From NCBI RefSeq assembly GCF_007744075.1, contig NZ_CP036266.1:4821748-4885747 (forward strand): 64,000 nucleotides of DNA, written 5' to 3'. The notes below the pieces were generated by a model. It worked only from the letters and a program-made list of their open reading frames with translations. It searched no databases and had not been told where the DNA came from. The stretch's first letter is position 1. The number at the start of each line of letters is the position of its first letter. This document shows, piece by piece, positions 1 to 25,335 of this stretch. A program made the translations under genes and the position numbers. Source of the stretch: Gimesia chilikensis. GTDB lineage: Bacteria > Planctomycetota > Planctomycetia > Planctomycetales > Planctomycetaceae.

Positions 1-1232
1 AAGACGATCGTAGTCGAACAGGTTTCGCCTGGCTTGATGACTGTGGGCCAGCGCACGAGAAATGGAACGCGGTGCCCCCCTTCTTCGAGGCCCCCTTTCC
101 AGCCGGTACAGGGACCGTTGCTGTCGTGACCGTAGATCATGGTATCGCCGCGAACCCAGCGCTGGGGATAGCCTTTGGTGCGGTTCACGGGCCCATTGTC
201 GCTGGTGAAGATGACGAGAGTGTTGTCGGCGATGCCCAGGTCGTCCAGCTTCCGGAGCAGCTTGCCAACGTGGTAATCGAGCTCGACGACGAAATCGCCA
301 TAGGTGCCGGCTTTGCTTTTGCCCATGAACTCCTTGTGGGGAACGATCGGGTTATGGGGTGTGGTCATCGCGTAATAGAGGAAGAAGGGCTGGTCGGGTT
401 TCGTGCGGACCGCGGACTCGACGAACTCGCAGGCCTTGTGCGACAGCGTGGGAACGAGTCGATCCATAGTGTAGCCGGCGGCGACAATGTTATCGTCCCG
501 ACCATACCATTCGCCGTGTTGTGCTTTGGCCTGGGCGGAAGTCATGGTGGGAATGACGGTCACACGGTTGTTCTCGATGAAAGCGGCGGGGTTCATCTCT
601 GCAGAACCGGCGGTGCCGAAGGAGTAAGCGAAACCAAAGTCTCGCGGACCTTTCAACGCCGGAGAAGCGAAGTCGATATTTTTAAAGTTCTGATAGTTGG
701 GGTCGACGCGGATCTGTGCCCGTTCGCTTTCGTCGTGCAGCTTCCAGTCGATGCCCTGGTGCCATTTACCGACGAGTCCGGTCCGGTAGCCAGCTTCCTG
801 CATCAGGTTCGCAATGGTTTTGCGGCCCGGTTCGATCAGGGTACCTGCGAAATTCGCGAGGTTCCCCCCCGAACCCAGGCGGGTACGCCACATGTAGCGG
901 CCGGTGAGCAGGCCGTAGCGGGAGGGGACACAATAGGAGCCCGCGGCGTGGGCATCGGTGAAGGTCAGGCTCTGACGGGCGAGTTGATCGAGATGGGGTG
1001 TCGGAATCCGGCTGTCGGCGTTGAGGGCGGTGACGTCACCATAGCCCATATCATCTGCAAGTATAAATACAATATTAGGTACACTCTTCTTTTCAGAGGA
1101 ATATGCTATATTAAGCGAACCAAACACAATGTATAATGTCAGTGTTGTAAGGATGAGTGTAGTAATATTATGTAGTAAATATCTATTTGATGATTTTTCA
1201 TCAAGCCCGGAAATTACTGCTGCAGGTTGCAT
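1..1232 (-). CDS. Sulfatase (formylglycine-dependent), C-terminus beyond left edge
   Basis: The minus strand is open from an ATG at 1232 to the window edge and reads as a type I sulfatase that hydrolyses sulfate esters, probably in the periplasm. The mature domain starts with VPNIVFILADDMGYGDV, whose two Asp residues are metal ligands. It then shows YCVPSRYGLLTGR, which carries the C-x-P-S-R signature whose Cys is oxidised to formylglycine. Further on are GKWHQG and FTSDNGP, both typical of the family. A hydrophobic stretch at residues 26-45 looks like a signal peptide or anchor. The start is chosen because GGAG lies 6 bases upstream. The first 60 codons are AT-rich while the rest is GC-rich, so the 5' end may have been exchanged. 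The C-terminus is not seen. The substrate cannot be told. Confidence 0.9.
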   Translation of the reverse strand, partial: MQPAAVISGLDEKSSNRYLLHNITTLILTTLTLYIVFGSLNIAYSSEKKSVPNIVFILADDMGYGDVTALNADSRIPTPHLDQLARQSLTFTDAHAAGSYCVPSRYGLLTGRYMWRTRLGSGGNLANFAGTLIEPGRKTIANLMQEAGYRTGLVGKWHQGIDWKLHDESERAQIRVDPNYQNFKNIDFASPALKGPRDFGFAYSFGTAGSAEMNPAAFIENNRVTVIPTMTSAQAKAQHGEWYGRDDNIVAAGYTMDRLVPTLSHKACEFVESAVRTKPDQPFFLYYAMTTPHNPIVPHKEFMGKSKAGTYGDFVVELDYHVGKLLRKLDDLGIADNTLVIFTSDNGPVNRTKGYPQRWVRGDTMIYGHDSNGPCTGWKGGLEEGGHRVPFLVRWPTVIKPGETCSTTIV

Positions 1233-2617: not shown

Positions 2618-3751
2618 ATGGCAGAAAAATCAAAATCCCGTCAAAGGCGTTCCCGCGGACGTGCCTGGTATTGGGAACAGACGGATTCCTGGTATTTCAC
2701 GCCACCGGGAACGAAAAAACGTTTGCGTCTTGTTGATACCACAGGGCGTCCTGTTCGCGGGAAAGAGAACAGTCAACTTGCAGAACTGGCACTGGCCCGG
2801 GTGAAAGCTGATGGGGACTGGTTGCCGACTCCAGAACAGAAGAGTAAGGTGGTGATACAAGTTGCCATGGTGTGCTCGCGGTATCTTGAACATTGTGAAG
2901 CTCGATTTAAACATGGAAACCTCAGCTCGGATTACCATGCTGAAGTGGCACGGTATCTGAATGAACTGTGCGCCTATTGTGGTGCTTTGGCCGTGGACGA
3001 ATTACAGAAAGGGCACATACAACATTGGGTGGAAAGCCATCCTACTTGGAAGTCGACGGCGACACAGCGGAATGCGATGAGTATCGTGATGGCAGCCTTT
3101 AATTTTTACACAGAGGAAGTCGGCTCCATTCACAATCCCCTGGTGGGAATGCAAAAACCACCGCAGTGCCCACGACTCCATTCTTTCAGTGAAGAAGATG
3201 AGCAATTGCTGTATTCTGCTACCGATGATTATTTTGGCAATTTCCTGTTTGCTGGAATTCATACAGGACTACGTCCTTTTTGTGAACTGGCCCGTGTTAC
3301 TGCCAATGATGTCATTGAATCTGAGCGGGGTATGCAATGGCGGGTCTATGCCAGCAAGACTGGGAAGACACGTACCATTCCTGTGCGGTCTGAGGTCGCT
3401 GAATTGACACGACAAATGATTGAGGAAGTGGGAGCTGATCCCACAACTACTCTTTTTCGGAATTCGCGAGGAGGTGCCTGGACGAAAGTGGCTGGCGTGC
3501 AACGTTTCCGTAAAATACGACAGGACCTAGGATGGCTCAATGATCCTGTCCGCAAGCAGTATTCGACTTATACCTGCCGTCATACATTCGCGCATCGGAT
3601 GCTCGCCGGCTACTGGAATGAGGGACAGGGATGTTCCATTGAAGTTTTAGCAGAGTTGATGGGGGATACTCCCAAAGTGGCCTTTGATCATTATGGCCGT
3701 GAGTGGGGACAGCATTATCAGGAGCCTCTGTGGACGGCAATTGGAATGTAA
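2618..3751 (+). CDS. Tyrosine recombinase (integrase), second of a tandem pair
   Basis: This 377-residue paralogue of the preceding recombinase follows it after 15 bases and was probably made by duplication. The two share the N-terminal pattern W-x-x-W/Q-T-D-x-W-Y and the same spacing of catalytic blocks. Visible are HTGLRPFCELARVT (Arg near residue 219), YASKTGKTRTIPV (Lys), YTCRHTFAHRML (Arg 321, His 322) and FDHYGREW (Tyr near 359). All expected active-site positions are present apart from Tyr in place of the first His of the H-x-x-R box. Tandem integrases in one operon suggest that the two act together, perhaps on different strands or half-sites, but that is inference. Confidence 0.9.
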   Translation: MAEKSKSRQRRSRGRAWYWEQTDSWYFTPPGTKKRLRLVDTTGRPVRGKENSQLAELALARVKADGDWLPTPEQKSKVVIQVAMVCSRYLEHCEARFKHGNLSSDYHAEVARYLNELCAYCGALAVDELQKGHIQHWVESHPTWKSTATQRNAMSIVMAAFNFYTEEVGSIHNPLVGMQKPPQCPRLHSFSEEDEQLLYSATDDYFGNFLFAGIHTGLRPFCELARVTANDVIESERGMQWRVYASKTGKTRTIPVRSEVAELTRQMIEEVGADPTTTLFRNSRGGAWTKVAGVQRFRKIRQDLGWLNDPVRKQYSTYTCRHTFAHRMLAGYWNEGQGCSIEVLAELMGDTPKVAFDHYGREWGQHYQEPLWTAIGM

Positions 3752-3855
3752 ACCACGCTCCAAAATCAGCTTTAGTTTGAATATTACTCAGCTGAAAATA
3801 CTCAGTATCTGCCGCCTCTGTAGACAAGAATAGGACTCAACGTAAGTGTTTTGAG

Positions 3856-5883: not shown

Positions 5884-6137
5884 AGTAAGCTTCAGTCGGC
5901 AGTCTCTCCTCTTGATGTGCTGGCATTAACCGCATCATAGGCTAAATTAATACGCTTTTTGTGTCATAATAAGTAGGGAATATTTAGCATTCAGGACGCT
6001 ATTCTATGGCCATTTCATCGTCCTGACTGCTCGATTACAGGGCGCCCGTTAGCGAAAACCGCTCCCATCGGTGAAGGATAGTACGGGCTTTTTCTGGTTT
6101 TCGAAAAATTTTCTACGGTCCCGCCATTTTTTCTTTC

Positions 6138-6169
6138 AATGTCGCACGCTGCGACAATTGTGCGACATT
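6138..6169. repeat. TGTCGCA repeat cluster B, inverted relative to cluster A
   Basis: AATGTCGCA at 6138-6146 and TGCGACATT at 6161-6169 form an outer dyad, and TGTCGCA/TGCGACA at 6140-6156 form an inner one. The 17-mer TGCGACAATTGTGCGAC (6150-6166) is the exact reverse complement of 4239-4255. The site lies about 110 bases before the serine recombinase start, within the otherwise gene-free stretch 5884-6281, where I see no other feature. It may be an operator for the recombinase gene or its crossover site. Confidence 0.7.
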
Positions 6170-6281
6170 CCATTTTTATGCTCAGCACTCGTACCACCTG
6201 CGACTTGTATTTGAAGTCTTCGACGTTCGAAGAAATATGTCTGTTGGCTGGGTGGCAAAACCTCTTTTAAGGAGTGCTTTC

Positions 6282-8684
6282 ATGTTAAAGCCAAACTACA
6301 AAACTAAGGTAACTCGGACACGTGAGCAGATTGCTCAAGAACGCGAGGATTTAGTACTTAAGACAGCGGGAGAAATTGATGCGATCGTGGCAGAATACCA
6401 CGCCAAACTTCCTCGCAAACAAGCAGAATCGATAGGGGCCGCTTATGCGAGATTTTCTTCCCGCTTTCAGGAATCGATTGCTGATCAGATTCGCGTTATC
6501 TTTGAGGCAGCGATCAAAGCTGGAATTTTCATACCACGCGAAAAAATCTTCTATGATTTGGCTGTGAGCGGCAAGAAAGAACGCCGTTCCGGGTTTAACC
6601 AGCTAAAAGAGGCCATTGAAAATAAAGAGTTCGAAGTTCTCCTGGTATTTACGACGTCCCGGCTGTATCGCAAAAACTACAAATCAATGCAGTTTGTTGA
6701 AGAAGAACTGGTAGAACGCGGGCTTCGTGCCATTTTTGTGAAGTCGGGACTGGACACAGCAGATGGAGATAACTGGAGAATGATGCTCCAGATGTACTCT
6801 TTTCTGGATGAAATCTATGCAGGAATGCATAGCGCTCATATACAGGCAGCACATGAGACTTTGTTTCTGCAAGGGATGGTCTGTACTTCACTTTCGTTGG
6901 GTTATACGGGGCAAGATGTTCCAGGTCAATTTACCAAACAAAAGCGACCGCGACAGAAGATAGTCATAGATCCAGAAACGGCACCCTGGATCAAAAAGAT
7001 CTTTGACTGGTATGTGGCAGGTAAAAGTATGGACCGTATTGCTCAAGACCTGAATGGTGATCCCAATGCACCTGCTCCCAATAAATCCTTAACAGGCATC
7101 TGGACGCATGAGCTGGTACGAAAGCATTTGATGCGTCCAGCCTACCGGGGATTTTGGTGTTATGGTGCAAAAGAGACCGAATGGTTGAGCAAAAAGGATT
7201 ATGCCAAACAGGTCGAACGCGATGAGCCCCTCAAGTCACAGCAGTTTGAATATCTACGGATCATTTCAGACGAGCAGTGGTACCGGGTCCAGGACCTTCT
7301 GGCAAACGAAAAGCAAAAATCCGGTCGAAAGCCCTTGGATAAAGTTCAAGAGGCAAGGCCGCGTTTGTTACGGCAACTTTTTGTTTGCCCTGAGCATGGT
7401 CGTAAGCTCGTCGTAGGGGGCCCATACGGCCGGAGCCTGCTTTGTCCATTATGTCGTGCTACTAAAGCTGAGGATCGCCCCCTATATACGCATCTCAACC
7501 GGGAGCTTGCGTTACAATTAACGTGTGAAAAACTTGTAGAATTGATCCGATCTGATTCTGAGCTGGTGCTGGAAATCATCGTTGCCTGTCAGCAGGCGGC
7601 TGAATCGGTTCAAAAGCCTGATCCAGAACGTTTAAGTCAATTACGCTCTGAAGCGAAAAAGCTGATGAGTAAAATTGAGTTCAATCGTCGTTCTCCAGGT
7701 GAATCGGATGCAGAGCAAAAACAGACAGAGCTGCTTCTGAAAGAGTTACGGGGACAGTACGCTGCCGTTTCAGTAGAACTGACTTCCCTGGAAACTGCAC
7801 AAAGTCAAGGTGTCGTTATACCGACAGCTGAGGAAGTAACTGCTTTACTTGATGAGTTTGGCAATTTAATCGCATCTGCTTCATTTTCTGAAGATGAAAC
7901 TGATTTTCGAATCGCCCGCCGTATCATCGATCTGCTGACTGGGGGTCAAATAGACCTATATCAGATGGGGGAGCGCAGACAGAAAAAAGGGTGGTTACAG
8001 GGCCGGTTCGTTGTGGATGTAGTTTCTGCCGTCTCCAGTCAGCTCACAGGTCTGACTGCCGATGCAGGACAGCGGCAGGGCAAAGAAGTGATTATCGACT
8101 ATAAAGCAGAAAAGCTGATCGATAGACAGGCTGAAGAAGCAAAAGCCCTATCTGATGAGGGGCTGCTCTGTAAGCAGATAGCCAAAGAGATGGGTAAGTC
8201 ACGTAGTTACATTACGGTTCTTATCAAGCACTGGTTTCGGTCTCGCGGACTGCCTGTCCCTGACGGACGTCGACGTCGTAAGCAACTGCCTAATAAACAG
8301 GAATCGTTGCCGCTTTACCGGCAACTGGCCGATGAAGCTGTGCAGTTGGCAGATCAGGGGCTGCCTTACCTTGTGATCGCCAGAAAACTGAAGACGAATG
8401 ATACTATCATCGGTAAAGCGATTTCATGGTGGCATACTTCACGAAACCTTCCCGTTCCCACGGCGGACGACCGTCGTAAAAAAACATTATCAAAAGCAAA
8501 GGAGCTTTATGAACAAGGTATACTTATTAAGGATATGGCACCCGACTTTGATTACGGCCCACGAGGCCTGACACTAGCGCTGAGGAAGTTTTACGCCGAA
8601 TTGGGAGAAACCATGCCAGACGGTCGCTCACGACGCGGTAATGCACGGTCTGGTGAGCCGGTGAATGGCAATTCTAAAAACTGA
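6282..8684 (+). CDS. Large serine recombinase with repeated C-terminal HTH-like units
   Basis: This is a large serine recombinase of 800 residues that catalyses site-specific integration or inversion. The resolvase domain (about 50-190) begins AAYARFSSRFQES with the nucleophilic Ser near residue 59 and has the conserved Arg block TTSRLYRKN. A recombinase domain follows (WIKKIFDWYVAGKSMDRIA), then a zinc ribbon whose ligands are C-P-E-H and C-P-L-C (about 365-400), then a coiled coil. Beyond residue about 620 come three repeated units, each of the form A-x-x-L-x-x-x-G-x-x-x-x-x-I-A followed by a basic G-R-x-R-R-like end (PVPDGRRRRK, PVPTADDRRK, MPDGRSRRG). These look like HTH units and are unusual for the family. 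The start at 6282 is set by AAGGAG seven bases upstream. Confidence 0.9.
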   Translation: MLKPNYKTKVTRTREQIAQEREDLVLKTAGEIDAIVAEYHAKLPRKQAESIGAAYARFSSRFQESIADQIRVIFEAAIKAGIFIPREKIFYDLAVSGKKERRSGFNQLKEAIENKEFEVLLVFTTSRLYRKNYKSMQFVEEELVERGLRAIFVKSGLDTADGDNWRMMLQMYSFLDEIYAGMHSAHIQAAHETLFLQGMVCTSLSLGYTGQDVPGQFTKQKRPRQKIVIDPETAPWIKKIFDWYVAGKSMDRIAQDLNGDPNAPAPNKSLTGIWTHELVRKHLMRPAYRGFWCYGAKETEWLSKKDYAKQVERDEPLKSQQFEYLRIISDEQWYRVQDLLANEKQKSGRKPLDKVQEARPRLLRQLFVCPEHGRKLVVGGPYGRSLLCPLCRATKAEDRPLYTHLNRELALQLTCEKLVELIRSDSELVLEIIVACQQAAESVQKPDPERLSQLRSEAKKLMSKIEFNRRSPGESDAEQKQTELLLKELRGQYAAVSVELTSLETAQSQGVVIPTAEEVTALLDEFGNLIASASFSEDETDFRIARRIIDLLTGGQIDLYQMGERRQKKGWLQGRFVVDVVSAVSSQLTGLTADAGQRQGKEVIIDYKAEKLIDRQAEEAKALSDEGLLCKQIAKEMGKSRSYITVLIKHWFRSRGLPVPDGRRRRKQLPNKQESLPLYRQLADEAVQLADQGLPYLVIARKLKTNDTIIGKAISWWHTSRNLPVPTADDRRKKTLSKAKELYEQGILIKDMAPDFDYGPRGLTLALRKFYAELGETMPDGRSRRGNARSGEPVNGNSKN

Positions 8685-12250: not shown

Positions 12251-12619
12251 ATGTCACATATTGTCACCATCCAAACGGAGGTCCGCGACTCTGAGGCATT
12301 GGGCCTGGCCTGCCGCCGACTCGAACTGGGAGAACCCGTTCACGAAACCGTTCCCCTGTTTAGCGGAGAAGCCACCGGATACGCGGTCCGTCTCCCCGAC
12401 TGGCGGTATCCAGTTGTGTTCGATGTCGAACAGGGCCAGGTTCGATTTGACAACTTTGAAGGTCGCTGGGGAGAGCCGGCTCAACTCAACAGACTGCTGC
12501 AATTTTACGGCGTGGAAAAATGCCGTCTGGAAGCGCGCCGGAAGGGTCATTCCGTCCACGAAAACCAGCTCAGCGACGGTTCCATTAAACTCACCATTCA
12601 GATCGGAGCAGACCATTGA
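12251..12619 (+). CDS. DUF1257 protein (Ycf35-like)
   Basis: This 122-residue protein matches the DUF1257/Ycf35 pattern, starting MSHIVTIQTEVRDSEALGLACRRL and continuing with TGYAVRLPDWRYPVVFD, then an alternating basic/hydrophobic C-terminus. In cyanobacteria and algal plastids this family occurs beside DUF2997 and a Ycf46-type AAA ATPase. The same three families occur together here. Biochemical function is not established. AAGGGA precedes the ATG, and its stop overlaps the start of DUF2997 in a TTGA junction. Confidence 0.8.
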   Translation: MSHIVTIQTEVRDSEALGLACRRLELGEPVHETVPLFSGEATGYAVRLPDWRYPVVFDVEQGQVRFDNFEGRWGEPAQLNRLLQFYGVEKCRLEARRKGHSVHENQLSDGSIKLTIQIGADH

Positions 12620-12810
12620 AAACAATCAACATTATTTTTTCAACGGACGGTCAGTCCCGCATCGAAACCCGCGGCTTTACCGGCTCCCGGTGCAAAGACG
12701 CCAGCCGGTTTCTGGAAGCGGCTCTGGGAAAGGTCTCCTCAGAACTGCTGACCTCCGAATACCACCAGGCCGTTCAACATCAATCCAACCAATTAACACA
12801 GGAGAATTAG
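12616..12810 (+). CDS. DUF2997 protein
   Basis: This 64-residue protein reads MKTINIIFSTDGQSRIETRGFTG... and then has a helix with RCKDASRFLEAALGKV, the pattern of DUF2997. It starts at a TTG that shares three bases with the TGA of DUF1257 and has GGAG upstream, so translation is probably coupled. The family accompanies DUF1257 in cyanobacteria and here. Its small beta-beta-alpha fold is of unknown role. Confidence 0.8.
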   Translation: MKTINIIFSTDGQSRIETRGFTGSRCKDASRFLEAALGKVSSELLTSEYHQAVQHQSNQLTQEN

Positions 12811-13475
12811 TTTTCGCAAATCAATACACGCAGGTCTTACCGGACCCGATTCCCGAAGATCCCCACCCGGTACGTATTCTAGTCGTCGTTGAAGGGGCAC
12901 ACGATATTGAATTTCTGACCCGCATCTCGACGCTCCTGCATACGGCACATCCCACACTGCCTGACCTGGCCGCGATGGAACGCGACAAGGAACTCATTTT
13001 CCTGCCCATTGGCGGCCACCCCCGGGCTTGGCTTAGTCGGCTGGCTCCGCTCCAAATTCCCGAATTTTATCTCTTAGACGGAGAGGCATCCCCTGAGAGG
13101 GAACAGCGGGAAGAGCTTGTTGCTCAGATTAATCGACGAATCCCTTGTCGTGCTGTGCTGACACGGAAACGGAGCTTGGAGAACTACCTGCATCCGCAAG
13201 CCATTCAGGCTGTTGCCGATTTCACTGTTGAATTCGGTGACCATGATTGTGTAGCGTCGGAAGTGGCGCAGCGGGTATTCGACAGTCGGCATGATGACTA
13301 TAGCTGGAAACAACTGACTCGTCGAATCCGGGTCCGACTCAGAAACCGGGCCAAGCACTGGCTCAATACCAGCGCGGTCGAACAGATGACAATTTCCCTA
13401 CTGCAGGAACGCGATCCTGACGGGGAAATCATTTCCTGGCTGGAAACGATCGGCCAGCTGGCGGGAACCGCTTAA
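12810..13475 (+). CDS. TOPRIM-like protein (OLD-type), start codon unclear
   Basis: About 220 residues read in one frame up to the stop at 13475. The N-terminus VRILVVVEGAHDIEFLTRIS resembles the first TOPRIM motif (catalytic Glu in EG-x-x-D). It is followed by LPIGGH-P, FYLLDGE with the acidic pair, and TRKRSLENYLHP, as in OLD-family TOPRIM domains that cut or bind DNA. The protein lies between DUF2997 and the Ycf46-like ATPase. No ATG, GTG or TTG is present in frame near the expected N-terminus. The frame is open upstream and lies -1 relative to DUF2997, so a nonstandard start (the codon at 12810 is GTT), a frameshift fusion or a mutation must be considered. The start given is therefore nominal. 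Confidence 0.6.
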   Translation, partial: VFANQYTQVLPDPIPEDPHPVRILVVVEGAHDIEFLTRISTLLHTAHPTLPDLAAMERDKELIFLPIGGHPRAWLSRLAPLQIPEFYLLDGEASPEREQREELVAQINRRIPCRAVLTRKRSLENYLHPQAIQAVADFTVEFGDHDCVASEVAQRVFDSRHDDYSWKQLTRRIRVRLRNRAKHWLNTSAVEQMTISLLQERDPDGEIISWLETIGQLAGTA

Positions 13476-15043: not shown

Positions 15044-15985
15044 ATGACCATAACTGCTATCGAAGAAGTAAATACCCGCACCGATCCCATCGATCGGCTG
15101 CGATCAACGATGTGTGCTACGCGCATCAGTTTTGAATGGTTTGGTACGCGCAAGTCACTGACACGCGACCAGAAGACTCAGGCCGCTGAATCGTTTGGGG
15201 CAGAAGGGACCTTCCTGAGTGCGGGCAAGAAACTACTGGATACCGGACACCCCCGTTTCCGGGCCGTGAATGCGGTCCGTCAGCGGGTGCGCTCGTACTG
15301 GACTTCCATCAGCCTGCCCTTTCCGGAATCCGGAATACGGTTACTGCGGCAGGATGCTTTGACTGCATTTCAGGACCAGATGCACCAGTTCACGCAAGAG
15401 CTCAACGAGGCTGTCTCACAGCTGGATGAACAATACCTGTCCCTGAAGTCAGCGGCCCGGGAACGCCTGGGGAGTCTCTTCAATGACGACGATTATCCCT
15501 TGACCCTGATAGGTCTGTTCGAAGTGTCCTGGGACTTTCCCAGCGTTGAACCACCGGATTATTTAAGGCAACTCAATCCGGAACTGTATGAGCAGGAGTG
15601 CCAGCGCGTGCAGTTACGCTTCGAAGAAGCAGTCAGGCTGGCGGAAGACGCCTTTCTGGGCGAACTGTCACAACTTGTGTCGCATCTGACGGATCGATTG
15701 AGTGGCCAGGCCGATGGCCGGCCCAAAGTATTTCGTGATTCCGCCATCGGGAACCTGCATGAGTTTTTTGAACGCTTCCGATCCCTGAATGTCCGTTCTA
15801 ACGAGCAGCTGGATGTGCTGGTAGCCCAGTGCCAGGGAATCGTGCAGGGCATTCAGCCCCAGGAATTGCGAAAACGGGGTGAACTCCGTCAGCAGGTCGC
15901 ATCAGAATTGTCTGGCGTCCAGGCAGCCCTGGATGGTCTGTTAATCGATCGACCACGGCGTCAGATTATTCGAACTCCCAAGTGA
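15044..15985 (+). CDS. Cassette protein of unknown function, mostly helical
   Basis: This 313-residue protein starts after GGAGCTAAT and lies 25 bases behind the AAA+ ATPase. It is mostly alpha-helical and has a conserved-looking N-terminal block ATRISFEWFGTRKSL, a Gly/Lys stretch and long amphipathic helices toward the C-terminus. No signal, membrane segment or catalytic motif is visible. Its place beside an AAA+ gene recalls helical partner proteins encoded next to MoxR-type ATPases (DUF3150-like), but I cannot make that assignment firmly. Confidence 0.6.
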   Translation: MTITAIEEVNTRTDPIDRLRSTMCATRISFEWFGTRKSLTRDQKTQAAESFGAEGTFLSAGKKLLDTGHPRFRAVNAVRQRVRSYWTSISLPFPESGIRLLRQDALTAFQDQMHQFTQELNEAVSQLDEQYLSLKSAARERLGSLFNDDDYPLTLIGLFEVSWDFPSVEPPDYLRQLNPELYEQECQRVQLRFEEAVRLAEDAFLGELSQLVSHLTDRLSGQADGRPKVFRDSAIGNLHEFFERFRSLNVRSNEQLDVLVAQCQGIVQGIQPQELRKRGELRQQVASELSGVQAALDGLLIDRPRRQIIRTPK

Positions 15986-15995
15986 GGTAATCCAC

Positions 15996-16247
15996 ATGAA
16001 ACTTTTGATCTCACCACTGGGGACGGTTCACTGCGTTTACTCAGAAGCCTTTAACCTGGCAACTCTCGGTCGACTGACCATTTCACGTGGCTCTTACGTC
16101 GAACCGAATGCAGCTGGTCAATGGCTGGTCGATCTGTCCCCCGTGAATGGGCCCCAGCTGGGCCCGTTTACGCAGCGGAGTGCTGCCCTGGAATCCGAAA
16201 CGGACTGGCTGGAACAGCATTGGTTGTCGCCAGATACCGGTCCTTGA
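15996..16247 (+). CDS. Small hypothetical cassette protein
   Basis: This 83-residue protein begins MKLLISPLGTVHCVYSEAF and is compact and beta-rich, with no membrane segment. GAGG precedes the ATG, and the gene lies 10 bases behind the previous one, so it belongs to the same transcript. The family is not recognised. A terminator-like hairpin follows it. Confidence 0.6.
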   Translation: MKLLISPLGTVHCVYSEAFNLATLGRLTISRGSYVEPNAAGQWLVDLSPVNGPQLGPFTQRSAALESETDWLEQHWLSPDTGP

Positions 16248-16354: not shown

Positions 16355-16570
16355 ATGAGACAGGCAGATTTAAATCGGGCCGTGGCCCTGGCAACCGGCG
16401 AAAGCATGTCGACCGTAAAACGTCTGGGCTTCTTATTAGCGGAGCCCGAGGAAGTCATTGATCCCGAGGCAGAAGAGTCGGGCCCTTACATCATTGACTG
16501 GGATGAACTGGAAGCCAATCGACTAAATTCCGAGCGACAAGGGGCACGCCATGAACCAGTGGTGGGCTGA
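16355..16570 (+). CDS. Small hypothetical cassette protein
   Basis: This 71-residue protein reads MRQADLNRAVALATGES, then a helix TVKRLGFLLAEP and an acidic second half. AAGGAG lies eight bases before the ATG. The N-terminal pattern suggests a short HTH-like fold, yet I recognise no family. It opens the second half of the cassette after the terminator-like hairpin. Confidence 0.6.
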   Translation: MRQADLNRAVALATGESMSTVKRLGFLLAEPEEVIDPEAEESGPYIIDWDELEANRLNSERQGARHEPVVG

Positions 16571-16742
16571 TCTTCAAACGAGCGAATGCTGTCGAACTGT
16601 CCCAAAGATCCTCAGTGTACGATCAAAATCGCAGTCAGTCCTGCTGCAAACGCTGCACGCCGGACGCATCAAGGGACGACGGGGTGTGAAAAGCAATACA
16701 CGCCGCAGGAAACGGCGTCGCAAACGACGGCTGCTCACATAA
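16551..16742 (+). CDS. Possible small basic protein
   Basis: This 63-residue ORF overlaps the end of the preceding gene by 20 bases and has AAGGGG upstream. The C-terminus is strongly basic ([10 protein letters not shown]), and CC occurs near residue 13. A rival ORF in another frame spans 16586-16798. Neither resembles a family I know, so this is offered weakly. Confidence 0.35.
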
Positions 16743-16794: not shown

Positions 16795-17019
16795 ATGAAA
16801 CTTTTATTGATCAACAACGATGGCGGTGGGTTCGCTGATTATATCGATGTCCCCGCAGGAACCACGGTAGCACAACTTTTTGAGCAGAAGATGGGAGATG
16901 CGGAAGCCCGCGATTACCTGATTCGCGTGAATCGCCAGCCGTGCCCCCCGGACCAGCAGTTACAGGACGGGGACCGAATTTCGATCACTCCGACGAAGAT
17001 TGAGGGGGCGCGGTCCTAG
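16795..17019 (+). CDS. Ubiquitin-like beta-grasp modifier
   Basis: This 74-residue protein has the MoaD/ThiS/ubiquitin-like pattern. MKLLLINND forms strand 1, [16 protein letters not shown] gives strand 2 and the helix, then YLIRVNRQP, and [16 protein letters not shown] is the typical last-strand motif. In conjugation systems the C-terminal Gly is adenylated by E1 and passed to E2. Here the end is KIEGARS, so there is no terminal Gly-Gly. The JAMM protease encoded downstream might trim it after Gly71 or Ala72. AAGGA precedes the ATG. The next genes are an E2-like protein, a JAMM protease and an E1, which supports the assignment strongly. Confidence 0.8.
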
Positions 17020-17034
17020 TTTTTGTATTTCCAC

Positions 17035-17064
17035 GGACTGTCGGGGTCTCGTCCCCGGCAGTCC
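17035..17064 (+). promoter_or_regulatory. Strong hairpin between modifier and E2 genes
   Basis: GGACTGTCGGGG pairs with CCCCGGCAGTCC (one G-U wobble) around a six-base loop. No T-tract follows, so it is more likely an mRNA-stability or processing element than a terminator. It sits 16 bases after the modifier gene. Confidence 0.5.
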
Positions 17065-17096
17065 GCCCTGGAATCCATTTTTTGAAAGAGGAGACA

Positions 17097-18152
17097 ATGA
17101 AGCATCCACGAAAACGACTCTGGCGGACTGCCAGTCGAATATATCACTGTCTGGTGTCTGAAGAACCCTCGTCGTTATATGAAATGCCATTCCAGACATG
17201 GTGGTACTGTGACCGGTTACTACGGAAACGCCAACAAGCACAACGCAGAGGCTGGGATTCGGCTGCACTAAAACTGGAACGACAACTGAAAACTGGTGTA
17301 ACCCAGTTGATCCAGGAACTGACAACTTTACATGGTGAATTGTCGTCTGATACATCTCCGCAGCAGATTTCTTCCGTCAGGGAACTCTATGCAGAACTGC
17401 GGTCTTTAGAAGAAGAATTCGGTGAGCTGCAGCTGGATCTCCGTGCCCAGACCATCTCTGTCAGTACAGAACCGATTAAACTGGAAGGCGTCTATCTGGG
17501 CCCTTTTGAGATTCGTCTCAATTATGCAAATCTGAAAATGGATAACGGGTCCCCTTATCGCGTGTTCGCCACGGACCCGCATCCGGCGTTTACCAATGAC
17601 TGTGTCACACATCCCCATATTCAATCTGATGTCGTCTGTGAAGGGGATGGACGGCAAGTCATACGCCGGTCGCTGGAACAGGGACGGCTGTTTGATTTTT
17701 TCACGATGGTGGCCAGCCTGTTACAAACTTATAACCGCGACAGTCCCTATGTGGCGCTCAGTGACTGGGACAGTGTTGAATGTACCGAGTGCGCCGATGT
17801 GATCGCAGCCAACCAGCAAACCCGCTGTGATAACTGTGAAATCACACTTTGCACGGGGTGTACTAAGGATTGTTCGGACTGCGATTGTCCGTTTTGCCAT
17901 GAGTGTTTGTCGTACTGTGATGGCTGTCACGGCCACTGCTGTTCGTCCTGTCTGCAACAGTGCATACAGTGTCATGCTGACTGCTGCCAACGCTGTTTAC
18001 TTGAAAATGAAAGGTGCTCTGATTGTGATGCGGAAGAAGAACTCGAAGAAACAGAGGAAGAATTACCGGAAACCCAGGCCTCATCAGCAAACCCGGTTAC
18101 CGCAACTGCGGTTCAGTCCGACTGCCTGGGCGAAACTGTTGTACCTGCGTGA
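17097..18152 (+). CDS. E2-like ubiquitin-conjugating protein fused to RING-like Cys array
   Basis: This protein has 351 residues. The N-terminal 115 are helical. Residues about 125-225 resemble an E2 (UBC) fold: PFEIRLNY, then FATDPHPAF, then THPHI (172-175, in place of the eukaryotic H-P-N), a Cys at 181 within VVCEGDG where E2 enzymes carry the catalytic Cys, and [16 protein letters not shown] as the following helix. From about 229 to 320 there are more than 20 Cys and several His in C-x-x-C pairs ([23 protein letters not shown]), which suggests binuclear zinc sites of RING or treble-clef type. An acidic tail ends the protein. It would take the modifier from E1 and may pass it to a target itself. 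GAGGAG precedes the ATG. The last 125 bases overlap the JAMM gene. Confidence 0.75.
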
Positions 18153-18702
18153 TTACGGAGACACCGAAGTTGGTGGCTTTGGGATTACATCAGAGGAGGA
18201 TCTGCTGCTGGTGCAGGACCTGCAGCTTGTGGAACAGACCTGCTCGGTGGCTCACGTGGCCTTCGACGATGAGGCGGTCGCGAATTTCTTTGACGACCAG
18301 GTGGACGCGGGCCTCCGTCCAGAACAGTTTGGTCGGATCTGGATTCATACGCATCCGGGAGATTGTCCCTTGCCCAGCCAGACCGATGAAAATACTTTTA
18401 ACCGTGTGTTTGGTCGATCCGATTGGGCCGTGATGTTCATTCTGGCGCGGACAGGGCGAACATATGCTCGGTTAAAATTTAATGTGGGTCCGACGGCAGA
18501 ATACGAAATCCCAGTAAAACGGGATTACTCTCAAACATTTGCCGGTAGTGATCCAGAACGTTGGGAGGATGAGTATTTAAGTCATGTGCATCCGCAACAG
18601 AACAGTCGCCTGTTCCAGTCTGCTTTTGATCAGACCGCAGATTTTGACTGGGATGAAGACTGGCTCTTTGCTGATTACGAATTGAAAGGAGAACAGATTT
18701 GA
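18028..18702 (+). CDS. JAMM/JAB-domain isopeptidase
   Basis: This 224-residue protein has a complete JAMM zinc-protease motif. Glu47 in GDTEVGGFG, His107 and His109 in WIHTHPGD, and Ser117 and Asp120 in PLPSQTDEN fit E...H-x-H-P-x(6)-P-S-x-x-D. Such enzymes cut after the C-terminus of ubiquitin-like proteins, either to mature the modifier or to remove it from targets. A Lys/Arg-rich N-terminal 25 residues precede the domain. The ATG at 18028 overlaps the E2 gene by 125 bases, and a later start would remove only the basic leader. Its stop overlaps the TTG of the E1 gene. Confidence 0.85.
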
Positions 18703-19364
18703 ATACATTAAATGTGACTATCGATCGTTTCCAAAGACAAAGTGACCTGATCCCGGCGGAACGGCTTTCTCAGTTGACGGCAACCGTCATCGGAGTGGGG
18801 GCCATTGGTCGTCAGGTGGCGCTGCAACTGGCGGCGATTGGGACACCACGGATTCAGCTGATTGACTTTGATAGTGTGGAGTCGACCAATATCACGACTC
18901 AGGGATACCGAGCTCAGGATCTGGGGCAGCTTAAAGTAGACACGACAGCCAGAGCCATCCAGGAGCTTGACGATTCAATTCAGGTAACGGTGATTATGGA
19001 TCGTTATCGAGTGTCCGTTCCTGTGGGTGAGGCTGTCTTCTGTTGTGTGGACTCGATATCAGCCCGTGCGGTGATCTGGCGATCCGTCAACAGAAAATGC
19101 GATTTCTGGACAGATGGAAGAATGCTGGGAGAAACAATTCGGATACTGACAGCAACTCAGCATCATGGAATGAAACAGTATGCGAAAACACTTTTCCCAC
19201 AAAACGAGGCACAAACCGGAAGCTGTACATCACGCAGTACGATTTATGCAGCCAGCATTGCTGCAGGACTTATGGTTCATCAATTCACTCGCTGGCTGCG
19301 AACTATTCCTGTTGATTTTGATACGACCTTCAATCTTCTCGCTGGTGAAACATACTTAAAATGA
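18699..19364 (+). CDS. E1-like ThiF-family adenylating enzyme
   Basis: This 221-residue protein has an E1/ThiF Rossmann core: [16 protein letters not shown] (nucleotide loop, 31-46), [17 protein letters not shown] with the ATP/Mg ligands, and Lys79. [12 protein letters not shown] is the usual second Asp block. Cys176 in GSCTSRST is a candidate thioester Cys, in the position of the Cys that precedes R-S-T in related bacterial proteins. The enzyme would adenylate the modifier encoded at 16795 and hand it to the E2-like protein. It starts at TTG within the TTGA that contains the JAMM stop, with AAAGGAG upstream. A strong terminator follows, so it is the last gene of the cassette. Confidence 0.85.
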
Positions 19365-19755: not shown

Positions 19756-21021
19756 ATGATGCGGTATATAGGGCTGGACGTTCACAAACACTTTATTGAG
19801 GTTTGTATAACGGACCGAAAAGGAAAGATTCTGGAACGGGGTAAAGTGAATTGCCAGCGTGATGTCCTGCTGGAATTCGCAACAAAGAAACTCCGGAAAC
19901 ATGATCGAGTGGCCCTGGAAGCAACGACAAATACGTGGGCCGTTGTCGACTTGATCCGTCCCCATGTGAAGCAGGTCGTTGTCGGCAACCCAATGAAGAC
20001 CAGGGCGATCGCAGAAGCAAAAATCAAGACTGATAAAGTAGATGCTGAAGTATTGGCCCATCTTCTGCGTTGTGACTACCTGCCATCTGTCTGGCAACCA
20101 GACGAACCAACTCAAACGCGGCGTGCTCTGTTAACGCACCGTAATGGCCTGATGAGTCGACGAGGACGCCATATGAACCGCGTCCAGTCAATGCTCGCGC
20201 GGTTAATGATCAAGCCTCCCTGCAAGTACCTGTGGTCAAAAACTGGGGTTGCTTGGCTTGAGACACTGGAATTGTCTCCCGTCGACCGACTGATGTTGGA
20301 CAGTCAGCTTCGGCAAATCACCCAGGTCAACCAGGAACTCGAGATTGTCGATCAGCGTCTCGTTGAGATCGCTCGAAATGATTCCAGTGTCCGGCTCCTG
20401 ATGACACTTCCTGGAGTGAGCCATGTCGTTGCTGTGGGACTACTGGCTGCGATCGGTGATATTGAGCGTTTCTGTGATGGCAATCATGCCGCTTCTTATC
20501 TGGGACTCGTGCCATCAACACGACAGTCAGGAAATAAGTGCTATCACGGAAGAATTACAAAGATGGGAAATCCCCACTGCCGCTGGCTGCTGACTCAGGC
20601 CTGCCAGCATGTATCGCGTCACCCAGGTCCACTGGGAGCATTCTATCGCCGGCTGGTGAAACGCAAACCACGTCAGGTAGCAATCATGGCTTTAGCACGA
20701 AAACTGGTAACCATCGCCTGGCAGATGCTCAAACAGAATGAACCTTACCGATATGCCAAACCTATGCTGATGGCAAAAAAGTTCACGGATCTGGATCGTA
20801 AGTATCGGCAGGAGCAACGAAGAACTCCTTCGGCTGCGAGAGCGAAGGCAGGAGATGGCCTGACGGCAGTCTACGACGAAATTGGATTCACGGATTCATT
20901 ATCCCTCAATCAAGTTCCCGATGGAGAACGCCGCATGTTAATTGAAAAGGATGTGATGATGTTTGTTGAAGAGCTGTACCGCCCAGTCAAGAAAGATAAA
21001 TCTAATCAATCAGACAAATAG
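19756..21021 (+). CDS. IS110-family transposase (DEDD)
   Basis: This 421-residue transposase begins MMRYIGLDVHKHFIEV, the RuvC-like first Asp block of IS110. It continues with RVALEATTNTWAVVD (Glu), AIAEAKIKTDKVDAEVLAHL (the Asp pair) and the C-terminal transposase_20 region LLMTLPGVSHVVAVGLLAAIGD, then FLGL/YLGLVPSTRQSG. It carries the conserved Ser region of that domain. The gene is intact and so may be active. GAGGAGG precedes the start. Codon use is more GC-rich than the flanks. Confidence 0.93.
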   Translation: MMRYIGLDVHKHFIEVCITDRKGKILERGKVNCQRDVLLEFATKKLRKHDRVALEATTNTWAVVDLIRPHVKQVVVGNPMKTRAIAEAKIKTDKVDAEVLAHLLRCDYLPSVWQPDEPTQTRRALLTHRNGLMSRRGRHMNRVQSMLARLMIKPPCKYLWSKTGVAWLETLELSPVDRLMLDSQLRQITQVNQELEIVDQRLVEIARNDSSVRLLMTLPGVSHVVAVGLLAAIGDIERFCDGNHAASYLGLVPSTRQSGNKCYHGRITKMGNPHCRWLLTQACQHVSRHPGPLGAFYRRLVKRKPRQVAIMALARKLVTIAWQMLKQNEPYRYAKPMLMAKKFTDLDRKYRQEQRRTPSAARAKAGDGLTAVYDEIGFTDSLSLNQVPDGERRMLIEKDVMMFVEELYRPVKKDKSNQSDK

Positions 21022-22496: not shown

Positions 22497-24992
22497 TTAC
22501 TTATATAATTGAGCTTGCCGCAAACGTAAAGCGTTGCCGATGACGGAAACTGAGCTAAGACTCATTGCAGCTGCAGCGATCATAGGATTCAACAGAGCCC
22601 CCATTCCAAGAAACGGAACCAGTACTCCACTGGCAACGGGCACGCCAAGAATATTGTAGATAAATGCGAAGAATAAGTTTTGGCGGATATTGCGCATAGT
22701 ACTGCGACTCAATCGGACAGCTTTAACAATGCCACGTAGGTCTCCTTTCACTAACGTCACACCGGCACTTTCGATGGCCACGTCCGTGCCTGTCCCCATC
22801 GCAATACCTACGTCAGCTTCAGCAAGTGCTGGTGCGTCATTAATACCATCGCCAGCCATCGCCACTTTACTACCTTTTGTCTTCAGTGCTCGTACTCTCG
22901 CGTTTTTGTCTTGTGGACTAATGCCTGCTTCCACTTCGTCGATGCCAAGATTCTTGGCCACTGCCAGGGCAGTACGCTTGTTGTCACCGGTGAGCACAAT
23001 AATTCGTAAGCCCAAATCGTGTAGTTCTTGCACAGCGTCGGGGGTTGACGCTTTGATAGGATCAGAGACGGCCAGTAGTCCGGCGAATTGCCCATTAACA
23101 GCAACGAACATCACTGTATGACCATCGTGCTGCAGCGTTTCAGCACGTTCTCGCATTGTCTCAATGTTACGAACTCTTTGATCGACAAGAAAGTCAAGTT
23201 TACCAATCAAAACGCTCTTTCCTTTAACCGTTCCTGATACTCCACCCCCGGTTGTGGAATCAAACTCATCAACTGCTGCCAAGTCAATTCCTTTTTCCCT
23301 GGCAGCATCGATGATGGCACGGCCTAGTGGATGTTCGCTGTTTCGTTCGACCGCTGACGCATATTCCAATAGCTCCTTCTCTGAAATGGACTCTGTAGGA
23401 ATGCATTCAGTGAGTTTGGGCCGTCCCTCCGTCAGTGTACCTGTTTTATCAACGACAATCGTATCCACCTGCTCCAGGACTTCTAAGACTACGGCGTCTT
23501 TGATCAGTACACCTTCCTGTGCTCCACGACCGATGCCAACCATGATTGACATCGGCGTGGCTAGGCCCAACGCACAAGGACAAGCGATAATGAGCACTGC
23601 GACAGCATTGATCAAAGCGAAACCAAGCCGTGGTTCTTCTGGAGATAACCATGCCCAAACAACAAATGTAACTATGGCGATTAAGACTACTGCGGGCACG
23701 AACCAGCTTGCTACCACGTCAACGATACGTTGTATTGGTGCACGGCTGCGTTGAGCGTCAGCAACCATCCGCACAATTTGTGACAATACAGTACCCTCAC
23801 CTACATGTTTTGCTCGCATTTGGAACGAACCAGTCTGATTCACCGTGCCGCCCATCACTAGATCGCCCGTCTGCTTCGAGACCGGAACTGGTTCACCGGT
23901 TAACATTGATTCGTCAATCGAACTCTTGCCGGAAATGATTTCTCCATCAACGGGTATTTTTTCGCCAGGAACTACTTTGAGAATATCGCTCTCGCGAACT
24001 TCTTCTAATGGAAGCTCCTGCTCTTGCCCGTTAACGACAACACGGGCCGTTGGTGGTGCTAGTGATAAAAGTTCACGAACTGCGTTGCCAGTTCGACGAC
24101 GGGCACGTAATTCAAGCACTTGTCCCAATAATACCAAGGCAATGATTACGGCAGCAGCTTCAAAATATACAGCAACGTGACCATTTTCTTTGAAAGAATC
24201 TGGAATCATTCCGGGCACCAGCACCGCGGCTGTGCTATATAAATATGCCGCACCAACACCAAGCGAGACCAATGTGAACATGTTTAAGTTCCAATTGACT
24301 AAGGACCGCCAACCACGTTTAAAGAACGGCCAGCCAGCCCAGAGTACAATCGGTGAACTCAGCGCAAATTGAACCCAAGACGAAACAAACGGTGAAAATT
24401 CCAGTGCCTTATCGAGCATTGGCAACATCGCCAACAGCAGTACCGGTATCCCCAAAACTACAGCGACCCAGAATCGTTGTGTCATGCTCCTAAGTTGGGT
24501 GTCGTCATCTTCCTCAAGCGCGGTTACATACTTCGGTTCCAGTTCCATCCCACACTTTGGACATGTACCTGGTTCATTCTGCTCAACTTCCGGGTGCATC
24601 GGGCACGTATAAACTGTTCGAGACTCTGCAAGTTCTGGTTTGACTAATTCTAAGGCCATTCCACACTTTGGGCACTCGCCGGGTTTATCACTGCCGATTC
24701 CTGCACACATTGGGCAGAAATATTTGTGGGACTTTGCAGCTACTGCATGTTTTGTTGTGGCGTTTTTACCTCCCAGCTCTGATTCAGGATTACAATTTCC
24801 ATGGCTTTTACCAGCACCGGTCTTCATGCTGGAATGCTGATTGTCTGGAGTCAGTAGAGCAGCCAAAGTCTGTTGCCTTTGGAATTTCTCTTTACAATTC
24901 TTACTGCAGAAATAGAATGTTGCTCCACCGAACTCACAATTTAACCCTGTTGCTTCTTCAACTTGCATCCCGCAAATTGGATCAATCGCCAT
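22497..24992 (-). CDS. copA: Copper-type P1B ATPase with YHS and metal-binding ribbons
   Basis: This 831-residue P1B-type ATPase exports Cu+ (or a related soft metal) from the cytoplasm. An N-terminal YHS domain (1-40; DPICGM, C-x-x-x-C) is followed by two short heavy-metal-binding ribbons, CPMCAGIG...CPKCGM (about 91-116) and CPMHPEVE...CPKCGM (about 118-143). No classical HMA domain is present. Then come eight membrane segments, the TGEP actuator loop, the [12 protein letters not shown] metal site, the phosphorylation site DKTGTLTEG and [10 protein letters not shown]. The start at 24992 is chosen because the YHS domain begins there and AGGA lies upstream. The CPC plus multicopper oxidase and Cus neighbours support copper. 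Confidence 0.92.
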
Positions 24993-25335
24993 ATAACACG
25001 TTCCTGCTAGTTCATGTCGTTGTGATGTGTAAAGAGAGGGGCGCACATTCCCGGCTTCTTCGATATTGGATGCAACCTACTCGTGCTTTCTTCATGTCAA
25101 ATGACATTATTTTGAGGTTCTCACTACTTTTTTTTCGATTCTCAATATAGTCATGGTATGGGGGGATAGGTTGTTTTCTATTCTATATTTAAATCGCAAC
25201 CAGAATTATTCTATGAGTACGTTATCTGACGAACAGATTGCTTTATCTTGATGCTGAACACAGCATACGTCTTTATCATGGAGAATAATTCACAAGCTCA
25301 ACGATTAAATCCCTGAACTCTTTTCATCAACAAAA
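24993..25335. other. Gene-free stretch upstream of copA
   Basis: About 340 bases, AT-rich. It must hold the copA promoter, but no clear operator dyad like those of the two MerR genes could be picked out. Confidence 0.4.

Follow-up and report, generated by a model that had tools for sequence, protein, structure and literature searches.

A putative ubiquitin-like conjugation cassette of planctomycetes with homologues on viral contigs

Introduction

Four consecutive genes of the planctomycete Gimesia chilikensis read as a modifier, an E2-like protein, a JAMM peptidase and an E1, which raises the question of whether a bacterium of this group carries a complete ubiquitin-like tagging system and, if so, whom it would serve. 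The genes lie at 16795-19364 of a 64,000-nucleotide stretch of contig NZ_CP036266.1 (assembly GCF_007744075.1, positions 4,821,748 to 4,885,747 of the forward strand), which is referred to here as the window and from whose first letter positions are counted. They were first picked out in an earlier note made from the letters and translated open reading frames (ORFs), and have now been followed by profile searches, structure modelling and comparison of loci. On balance it is probable that they form a working ubiquitin-like protein (Ubl) conjugation cassette on mobile DNA, shared by planctomycete chromosomes and phages. The general kind of operon has precedents; its occurrence on viral contigs and its neighbours are the less expected parts.

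Results

A conserved four-gene cassette

The Ubl, E2/array, JAMM and E1 genes are co-directional and occupy about 2.6 kb, the E2 and JAMM frames sharing 125 bases and the JAMM and E1 frames four. The ORFs are in place as the earlier note had read them, and the same order is kept together in 23 loci from 13 genomes, the window counted in. Three of the 25 stretches taken around E2 matches (L050-L052) lack the cassette; L050, where the E2 match runs through the cysteine array only, was left out of the alignments. All four genes are also present in 43 of the 46 loci from named organisms with at least 3.5 kb upstream of the E1, the exceptions being L113, L121 and L129. The set of loci found through E2 matches and the set found through E1 relatives overlap partly, sharing contigs.

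Among five close copies, the ratio of nonsynonymous to synonymous substitution (dN/dS) lies between 0.02 and 0.31 for eight genes wherever it could be computed, apart from one 64-codon DUF2997 pair with a value of 1.22 at a dS of 0.02, which is uninformative. These ratios indicate that the cassette genes are under purifying selection and, together with the conservation, rule out chance ORFs. The E2 of the window is only 50% identical to those of the four other close copies, against 82-86% for the Ubl; since dS is saturated for these E2 pairs, an arms-race reading was dropped and is not claimed. A short and very basic ORF of 63 residues is also seen between the p71 and Ubl genes (16551-16742).

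The modifier and the JAMM peptidase

The modifier matches ThiS (PF02597) at E 8e-6, above the cut-off, which bears out the beta-grasp fold first proposed for it, though a profile search of the PDB gave nothing useful. It has no C-terminal diglycine. In its place, throughout 62 distinct relatives, stands KIEG-A or a close variant: all 62 carry [K/R][I/V][E/Q]G followed by Ala (61) or Gly (1), and in the alignment Gly71 is conserved in 63 of 63 rows and Ala72 in 62 of 63. What follows is variable, with 1-49 residues past the Gly and no sequence stopping at the first Gly. Because the invariant K-I-E-G-A precedes a variable tail, the Ubl is probably a precursor trimmed by the JAMM protein, with the simplest and most likely cut after Gly71. 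Several long tails, extending 29-36 residues past the Gly, share a recurring WEPDN or WA[HQ]DN (L031, L032, L042-L045, L049, L067, L105).

The JAMM protein matches Prok-JAB at E 8e-4, under the Pfam cut-off, and the PADLOC JAB profile at 4e-6. The E...HxH...S..D motif of JAMM/MPN+ peptidases is complete, and the five residues named in the earlier note are found at the same numbers and do not vary wherever a relative reaches them: E47 in 83 of 83, H107 in 87 of 87, H109 in 86 of 87 (the other being one unread letter), and S117 and D120 in 87 of 87, with five to nine of the 92 rows uncovered. In the PDB the nearest match of the JAMM profile is Rpn11 (E about 0.02), and an N11-like protein also matches weakly.

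The E1

The E1 matches many ThiF/MoeB models, the best a ThiF model at E 9e-17. It has the GxGxxG motif and the adenylation residues, and G32, G34, G37, D56, D58, N64, Q68, K79 and D118 are the same in the MoeB-like protein of the host genome. Cys176, proposed earlier as the candidate catalytic residue, is identical in all 95 rows that cover it, three of the 98 rows being uncovered. The closest relative of the window E1 is that of a Gimesia metagenome-assembled genome, at 80% identity.

The E2 core and its cysteine array

For the E2/array protein no family is found in Pfam, NCBIfam or PADLOC at E up to 1. Its putative active site is nevertheless strictly kept, H172, H174 and C181 being identical in all 71 rows that reach them (10 of the 81 do not) and HPH..C being read in 70 of these, with HSH in the remaining row. 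An AlphaFold model, the check suggested in the earlier note, was built with 22 sequences (mean pLDDT 80.6, pTM 0.56) and has the element order of an E2, with a helix, a strand meander, the active-site stretch and two helices. Foldseek listed 50 PDB matches for this model, of which about 27 have E2 titles and others are PHD, FYVE, LIM or RING domains. The model thus lends weak support to the E2 fold that had been proposed.

The E2 core is followed by an array of eight to ten CxxC knuckles, for which a simple parse gives gaps of 11-4-3-4-3-4 in 19 of 22 sequences. The parse of the window protein is displaced by one extra Cys, and its aligned Cys positions still yield the same gaps, in which the alternating 4 and 3 make up a 15-residue unit. 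There is no conserved histidine. The array had been taken for RING-like, and here the earlier note has to be corrected: neither the gaps nor the missing His fit the RING consensus C-x2-C-x(9-39)-C-x(1-3)-H-x(2-3)-C-x2-C-x(4-48)-C-x2-C, as given in PMC11354881, and a canonical RING was rejected. The best profile matches are weak, to Midline-1 (E 0.002) and to a FYVE domain (E 0.004), and matches of cysteine-rich sequences call for caution. The array is nearer to FYVE, B-box and treble-clef domains and is best described as a treble-clef-like array, which may bind zinc and could have an E3 role. With such a repeated array fused to an E2, the protein would be a candidate E2-E3 on a single chain, which would be unusual.

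Cassettes on viral contigs

A search of IMG/VR with the E1 profile gave 13 loci. Nine of them (L209-L216 and L219) have the full four-gene set, ordered as in the planctomycetes, with the E2 of L219 matching at only 9e-5 and L214 and L215 looking alike. In L217 and L218 the E2, JAMM and E1 are present and a Ubl was not detected, and L220 and L221 are distant. The viral status of L209-L219 is based on their IMG/VR classing, on neighbours matching PHROG families and on terminase matches. Alignment of planctomycete and viral profiles with hhalign gave E values of 4e-34 for the Ubl, 2e-38 for the E2, 4e-82 for the JAMM and 5e-110 for the E1. The 16 mismatched control pairs, which gave 0.13-0.99, set viral against crAss-like rather than planctomycete alignments. 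On these profile alignments the homology of the viral and planctomycete cassettes is regarded as firm.

The viral proteins vary around the same plan. The motif HTHP...S..D is found in nine of the 10 viral JAMM loci shown and L219 has HTHGG...S..D with a longer gap, the viral E2 proteins have from 4 to 21 CxxC motifs, and a protein of L214 reads as three tandem Ubl units ending KGA. In L213 two E2/array genes flank the JAMM and E1 genes (2636-3826 and 5908-7257), both with a eukaryote-like HPN. Seven of 10 hand-picked neighbours, from six viral loci, match phage families, among them exonucleases, a single-stranded DNA-binding protein (SSB), primase, helicase, a Cas4-type nuclease and an ATPase. 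In L209 the order AAA-p313-p83-p71-Ubl-E2-JAMM-E1 stands on a contig with a terminase.

In a tree of E1 sequences, viral and chromosomal rows are interspersed, many forks lacking resolution; L210 groups with L041, a chromosomal row (100/86), and L216 with L121 (98/82, on a long branch). This interspersion suggests exchange between viral and chromosomal cassettes, in either direction. A label test on the tree compared viral with crAss-like rows only and says nothing on viral against chromosomal rows.

Among 50,697 records of cultured phages, relatives of the E1 were found in 82 with the L211 E1 as query and in 39 with the window E1, at about 27-31% identity in the rows listed; they include crAss-like, Flavobacterium and jumbo phages. 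In three crAss-like records, phiCrAss001 included, the E1 follows a gene deposited as a metalloprotease domain, with a DNA primase before and a uracil-DNA glycosylase after; in a fourth a hypothetical protein stands at the metalloprotease position. The crAss-like E1 is supported by hhalign (6e-28 and 7e-38) and the Ubl is weak (0.018); hhalign gives no support for the E2 and JAMM, which are read there from motifs, order and deposited notes. In Xanthomonas phage PhiXhv-12 the E1 comes after a 140-residue protein that ends in GG and a large cysteine-rich protein bearing HPH...C, and no JAMM lies between these and the E1; by its motifs this arrangement is suggestive. The E2 of L041 had no match among cultured phages, and an E2 fold search among viral models gave four matches below 0.001, none with an informative function name. 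In Flavobacterium phage Fpv1 (L224, 2668-4960) a JAMM-like frame is deposited in two pieces around an endonuclease gene.

Copies and genomic islands

The host genome, a single contig of 8.29 Mb, yields six E2 matches, and a cassette is present at every one. In the phylum, E2 matches occur in 16 of 392 genomes, being partial and without a cassette in the stretch taken for G007, G342 and G386. The phylum searches, for E2 and for p313, scored at most five candidates per genome, so copy counts in these genomes are lower bounds. On genome contigs 233 relatives of the E1 were found; 76 of the 80 that were kept have planctomycete titles, and the others are two named 'bacterium', one Emcibacter and one Hydrogenedentota.

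Integrases lie near five of the six copies. Nine of the 13 integrases of the genome are within 20 kb of the cassettes, which with their flanks make up 3.5% of it; this was matched by none of 20,000 random placements, in a test where recombinases cluster and are not independent and where cassette and match positions were entered by hand. At the copy in the window, integrases and a recombinase lie on the upstream side, and a transposase-like gene follows downstream. By reading, an IS110-type transposase is seen just downstream of the cassette (19756-21021), and a heavy-metal P-type ATPase on the minus strand (22497-25046) adjoins the island.

Defence genes are found in the same surroundings. Of the eight DrmD matches listed, the two that exceed 1000 bits are within 20 kb of cassettes (25 of 20,000 placements). 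So is the CD-NTase, for which one of two matches is full-length, at about 14 kb from one copy; the weaker DrmD and CD-NTase matches were excluded from the placement test. A PADLOC scan covered 19 ORFs picked by hand in six of the ten flank stretches and detected two DISARM sets, a CBASS cyclase with a SAVED-HNH effector, and a SIR2 protein. The DISARM genes lie about 3-16 kb from two copies, and the CBASS and SIR2 genes 14 kb and 3 kb from a third.

The host genome also holds other genes of this kind. A second E2-E1-JAB set at G000:C1:7067.9-7070.2 kb (L146:2447-4748) matches Prok-E2_B at 2e-9, ThiF and Prok-JAB, with a Pro/Gly-rich ORF of 69 residues upstream of the E2. In a further E2-E1-JAB copy at G000:C1:5.383-5.386 Mb (L145:912-3432) a transposase-like frame stands where the E2 should start and continues into the E2 end, and a 593-residue JAB-ThiF fusion is encoded near one cassette on the minus strand, at about G000:C1 5.4357-5.4375 Mb (L144:1210-2991).

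A separable AAA+ core operon

The earlier note had also described the set as joined to AAA+, DUF1257 and DUF2997 genes. These genes do stand upstream in the window (Table 1), but they form a separable core operon. Among the 29 Ubl loci whose upstream stretch is 9 kb or longer, 17 have the AAA or p313 gene and 12 have neither, and the core operon is also found without a cassette, which rules it out as an obligatory part. Its usual order is DUF1257-DUF2997-(TOPRIM-like)-AAA-p313-p83-p71. Both AAA and p313 are present in 29 of 31 p313 loci outside known cassettes (30 and L143 of the host genome); there is no Ubl cassette at these 31 AAA-core loci because they were chosen outside known cassettes.

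The p313 family occurs in 27 of the 392 phylum genomes and has a distant relative on viral contig L212 (E 2.5e-7), and a model of the protein (pLDDT 69) has no significant fold match. No match was found in the PDB or Pfam for the optional protein that we take, from its motifs, to be TOPRIM-like. A beta-clamp-like protein follows in 11 of the 31 AAA-core loci; in the PDB its profile finds the beta clamp of DNA polymerase III (E 6e-7), and Pfam gave no useful match. Such a protein also stands after the E1 in five of 105 Ubl-side loci, directly in L066, L072 and L074, after p71 in L063 and about 1 kb on in L107, and there are two weaker clamp-like matches elsewhere. In the copy L029 (1113-4444) the DUF1257 gene is split by some 3 kb of sequence, in which lie a resolvase and another DUF1257-like frame. 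In other planctomycete groups, AAA-less cassettes have proteins of about 290 residues upstream that look alike by reading (L041:5731-6600, L130:5524-6417, L132:124-762).

Table 1. Genes of the cassette and of the adjoining AAA+ core operon, by position in the window
Feature	Position	Strand	Basis or remark
p189, 189 aa	11680..12249	+	head of core operon; lipoprotein-like start by reading
DUF1257-like	12251..12619	+	PF06868 E 0.016, 15.9 bits against cut-off 22.2
DUF2997	12616..12810	+	PF11211 1.1e-13, above cut-off
TOPRIM-like (presumed), optional	12813..13475	+	frame coordinates; conserved; motifs VVVEG..D, LLDGE, SLENYL
AAA+ ATPase, 498 aa	13522..15018	+	PF00004 1.4e-25; ATPase domain aa 258-388
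p313, 313 aa, conserved, no known family	15044..15985	+	AAA core operon
p83, small protein of AAA core operon	15996..16247	+	locus comparison
p71, small protein adjoining Ubl cassette and AAA core	16355..16570	+	locus comparison
Ubl modifier, 74 aa, beta-grasp (ThiS-like)	16795..17019	+	PF02597 match and alignment
E2/array protein, 351 aa	17097..18152	+	alignment, AlphaFold model, Foldseek
E2/array domains	aa 5-84; ~94-225; ~229-310		N-terminal helices; E2 core (HPH172-174, Cys181); cysteine-knuckle array
JAMM metallopeptidase (E47, H107, H109, S117, D120)	18028..18702	+	ATG start chosen
Minimal E1, ThiF/MoeB core, 221 aa, invariant Cys176	18699..19364	+	TTG start

Discussion

A model for the cassette

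From the genes and their setting we infer a likely chemistry and possible substrates. The JAMM protein would trim the Ubl precursor at KIEG-A, most likely leaving Gly71 at the C-terminus, and might also strip the tag from targets. The minimal E1 would adenylate the Ubl carboxylate, perhaps by way of Cys176, and the Ubl would move on to Cys181 of the E2, with the fused cysteine array acting as a built-in substrate- or E3-like module. On chromosomes the cassette is often an add-on to the AAA+ operon, and most copies of the host genome lie in islands rich in integrases; on viral contigs it stands among DNA-metabolism genes. The most likely role would be the tagging of DNA-replication or phage-development proteins during conflict between host and mobile elements, from which either side may profit.

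Several observations weigh against a working and mobile cassette of this kind. The frame is apparently broken in three of the 23 loci (E2 in L039, JAMM in L047 and L049), and a stop falls inside eight of the 26 E2 matches of the phylum search, although in L028-L030 and L033 the frame simply ends earlier, at 338 residues. The best Foldseek match of the E2 model has an E value of 0.065 with none below 0.001, and a profile of the E2 core found no sequence in the PDB at E up to 10. Automatic MAFFT does not align C176 of the E1 with the cysteine of the genome's MoeB-like protein. The mature modifier could end at Ala72 instead of Gly71, since seven of the 62 distinct Ubls stop there. As for mobility, one of the six copies has no integrase within 20 kb and a plasmid search with E2 and E1 gave no match, which removes plasmid carriage. 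There is no Terminase_6N in the host genome, so the chromosomal copies are unlike ordinary prophages, an explanation that is thereby ruled out for all six. Even among viral records Terminase_6N is found in four of the 11 that bear a cassette, only two of them above the cut-off (five and three of all 13), and the PHROG families matched by the neighbours also occur in bacteria. The PADLOC scan, finally, left out L133-L135, L137 and the flanks of the window.

Whose side the tag serves

Bil is reported to tag phage proteins, and in CBASS a host sensor is tagged and activated. The cassette might accordingly be a host anti-phage defence that tags phage proteins or that tags and activates a host sensor, in which case the phage copies would be decoys or serve to exclude rivals. 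This is possible, if tentative. The DISARM, CBASS and SIR2 genes near three copies, the presence of six copies in one genome and the patchy distribution over the phylum would all be consistent with it, but the islands carry many kinds of cargo, the viral cassettes adjoin phage-type DNA-metabolism genes and no PADLOC system model covers the cassette as a whole. Alternatively, the cassette may be a tool of the mobile element that modifies the replication machinery of element or host, for example the sliding clamp, in favour of the element, with the chromosomal copies as cargo of integrative elements. The exonuclease, SSB, primase and helicase beside the viral cassettes, the clamp-like proteins at both AAA-core and Ubl-side loci and the integrases near most copies point this way; the clamp-like protein is, however, missing at the remaining Ubl loci, that of the window among them, and the host genome has no terminase of the family searched, and we consider this explanation somewhat unlikely as it stands. 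A more elaborate version is rather unlikely: phages and phage-like mobile elements would encode the complete Ubl machine, its E2 with a built-in zinc ligase module, within a DNA-replication module and tag replication proteins of host or rivals such as sliding clamps, planctomycetes would have captured it repeatedly beside an AAA+/clamp operon, and distant versions would exist in crAss-like phages of the human gut.

Two explanations would take the cassette out of the conflict altogether. Tagging for unfolding or degradation by the AAA+ protein, as routine protein quality control, would fit the 17 of 29 loci with AAA or p313 and the Rpn11 match of the JAMM profile, but not the 12 loci without the AAA core, the accessory and multi-copy nature of the cassette, or an operon in which no protease other than the JAMM protein was recognised; it is improbable. 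It would seem still less likely, to the point of being very improbable, that the genes form a sulfur-carrier system of the ThiS/MoaD type for a cofactor or small molecule, with some other role for the E2-like protein. Though the Ubl is ThiS-like and the E1 ThiF-like, that would leave the invariant HPH...C of the E2, the JAMM protein and the variable Ubl tail without a place, the operon was not seen to hold a rhodanese or any biosynthetic gene, and the host genome has separate MoeB-like and MoaD-like genes by reading. A function in the conflict between host and mobile elements is the preferred interpretation.

Bacterial Ubl conjugation has so far been discussed mainly as host defence. A full viral cassette that is homologous to chromosomal ones near defence systems suggests that tagging has been traded between both sides; if true, protein tagging would have its place in the struggle of bacteria with their genetic parasites. 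The small size of the cassette, its clearly predicted active sites and the mass-spectrometric signature predicted for it make tagging by phages directly testable.

Relation to known systems

The earlier note had placed the set beside Bil, Bub and Cap2/Cap3, a comparison that stands as one of likeness and, for Bil and Cap2/Cap3, fails as one of membership. In Type II CBASS with Cap2/Cap3, E2 and E1 are fused and a CD-NTase is encoded in the operon. The E1/E2/JAMM chemistry would be alike, and PADLOC E1-E2 profiles match the cassette E1 at 8e-15, but here E1 and E2 are unfused, a dedicated Ubl is present and there is no CD-NTase in the operon. Membership was rejected on the unfused E1 and E2 and on a CD-NTase that lies near one of the six copies only. 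The Citrobacter BubCD (PDB 9ea4) has a related E1 domain (E 4e-10), but in a chain of 458 residues as against the separate E1 of 221 residues here. BilABCD, as described in PMC11354881, likewise has separate Ubl, E2, E1 and JAMM genes and a JAMM said to mature the Ubl; its BilA has two Ubl domains, its BilD an inactive adenylation domain (IAD), an active adenylation domain (AAD) and a Cys domain, and its BilB a CEHH motif. The single Ubl of 74 residues, the short E1 and the HPH...C E2 differ from these, and with no two-Ubl BilA and no E1 with IAD, AAD and Cys domain the cassette was not assigned to Bil.

The FtsH-ternary conflict systems of PMC7159879 also have separate JAB, E1 and RING-type parts, and release of the Ubl by the JAB has been proposed for them. 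There, however, Ubl and E2 are in one protein, accompanied by EAD1, vWA/MoxR and caspase-like genes, none of which was recognised here; the same paper mentions a Ubl system of other make-up in a planctomycete lineage. Iyer 2006 (PMC1779556) describes other operon types, of which type 6d, with an E2 lacking the His of the HPN position and a JAB with an extra N-terminal domain, is ruled out by the His at that position in the cassette E2.

Also alike in layout are the Caldiarchaeum-type Ub-E1-E2-RING-Rpn11 operons, which according to PMC4197634 combine one Ubl gene with individual genes for E1, E2 and JAMM and for a zinc-binding E3-like part; related operons in bacteria, including Actinobacteria, Planctomycetes and Acidobacteria, are noted there with reference to Burroughs 2011. 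Compared with these, the cysteine array is fused to the E2 rather than being a small RING, the E1 is a bare ThiF core, and the cassette has links both with viral contigs and with an AAA+/DUF1257/DUF2997 operon. No description of the E2-array fusion, of the AAA/DUF1257/DUF2997 or clamp linkage, or of a complete phage Ubl cassette was found in the best-ranked papers of a literature search. The novelty may be lower if the planctomycete operons have already been described more fully; the general kind of operon is already known, and it is the occurrence in phages and the linkage to clamp and AAA+ genes that are the surprising parts.

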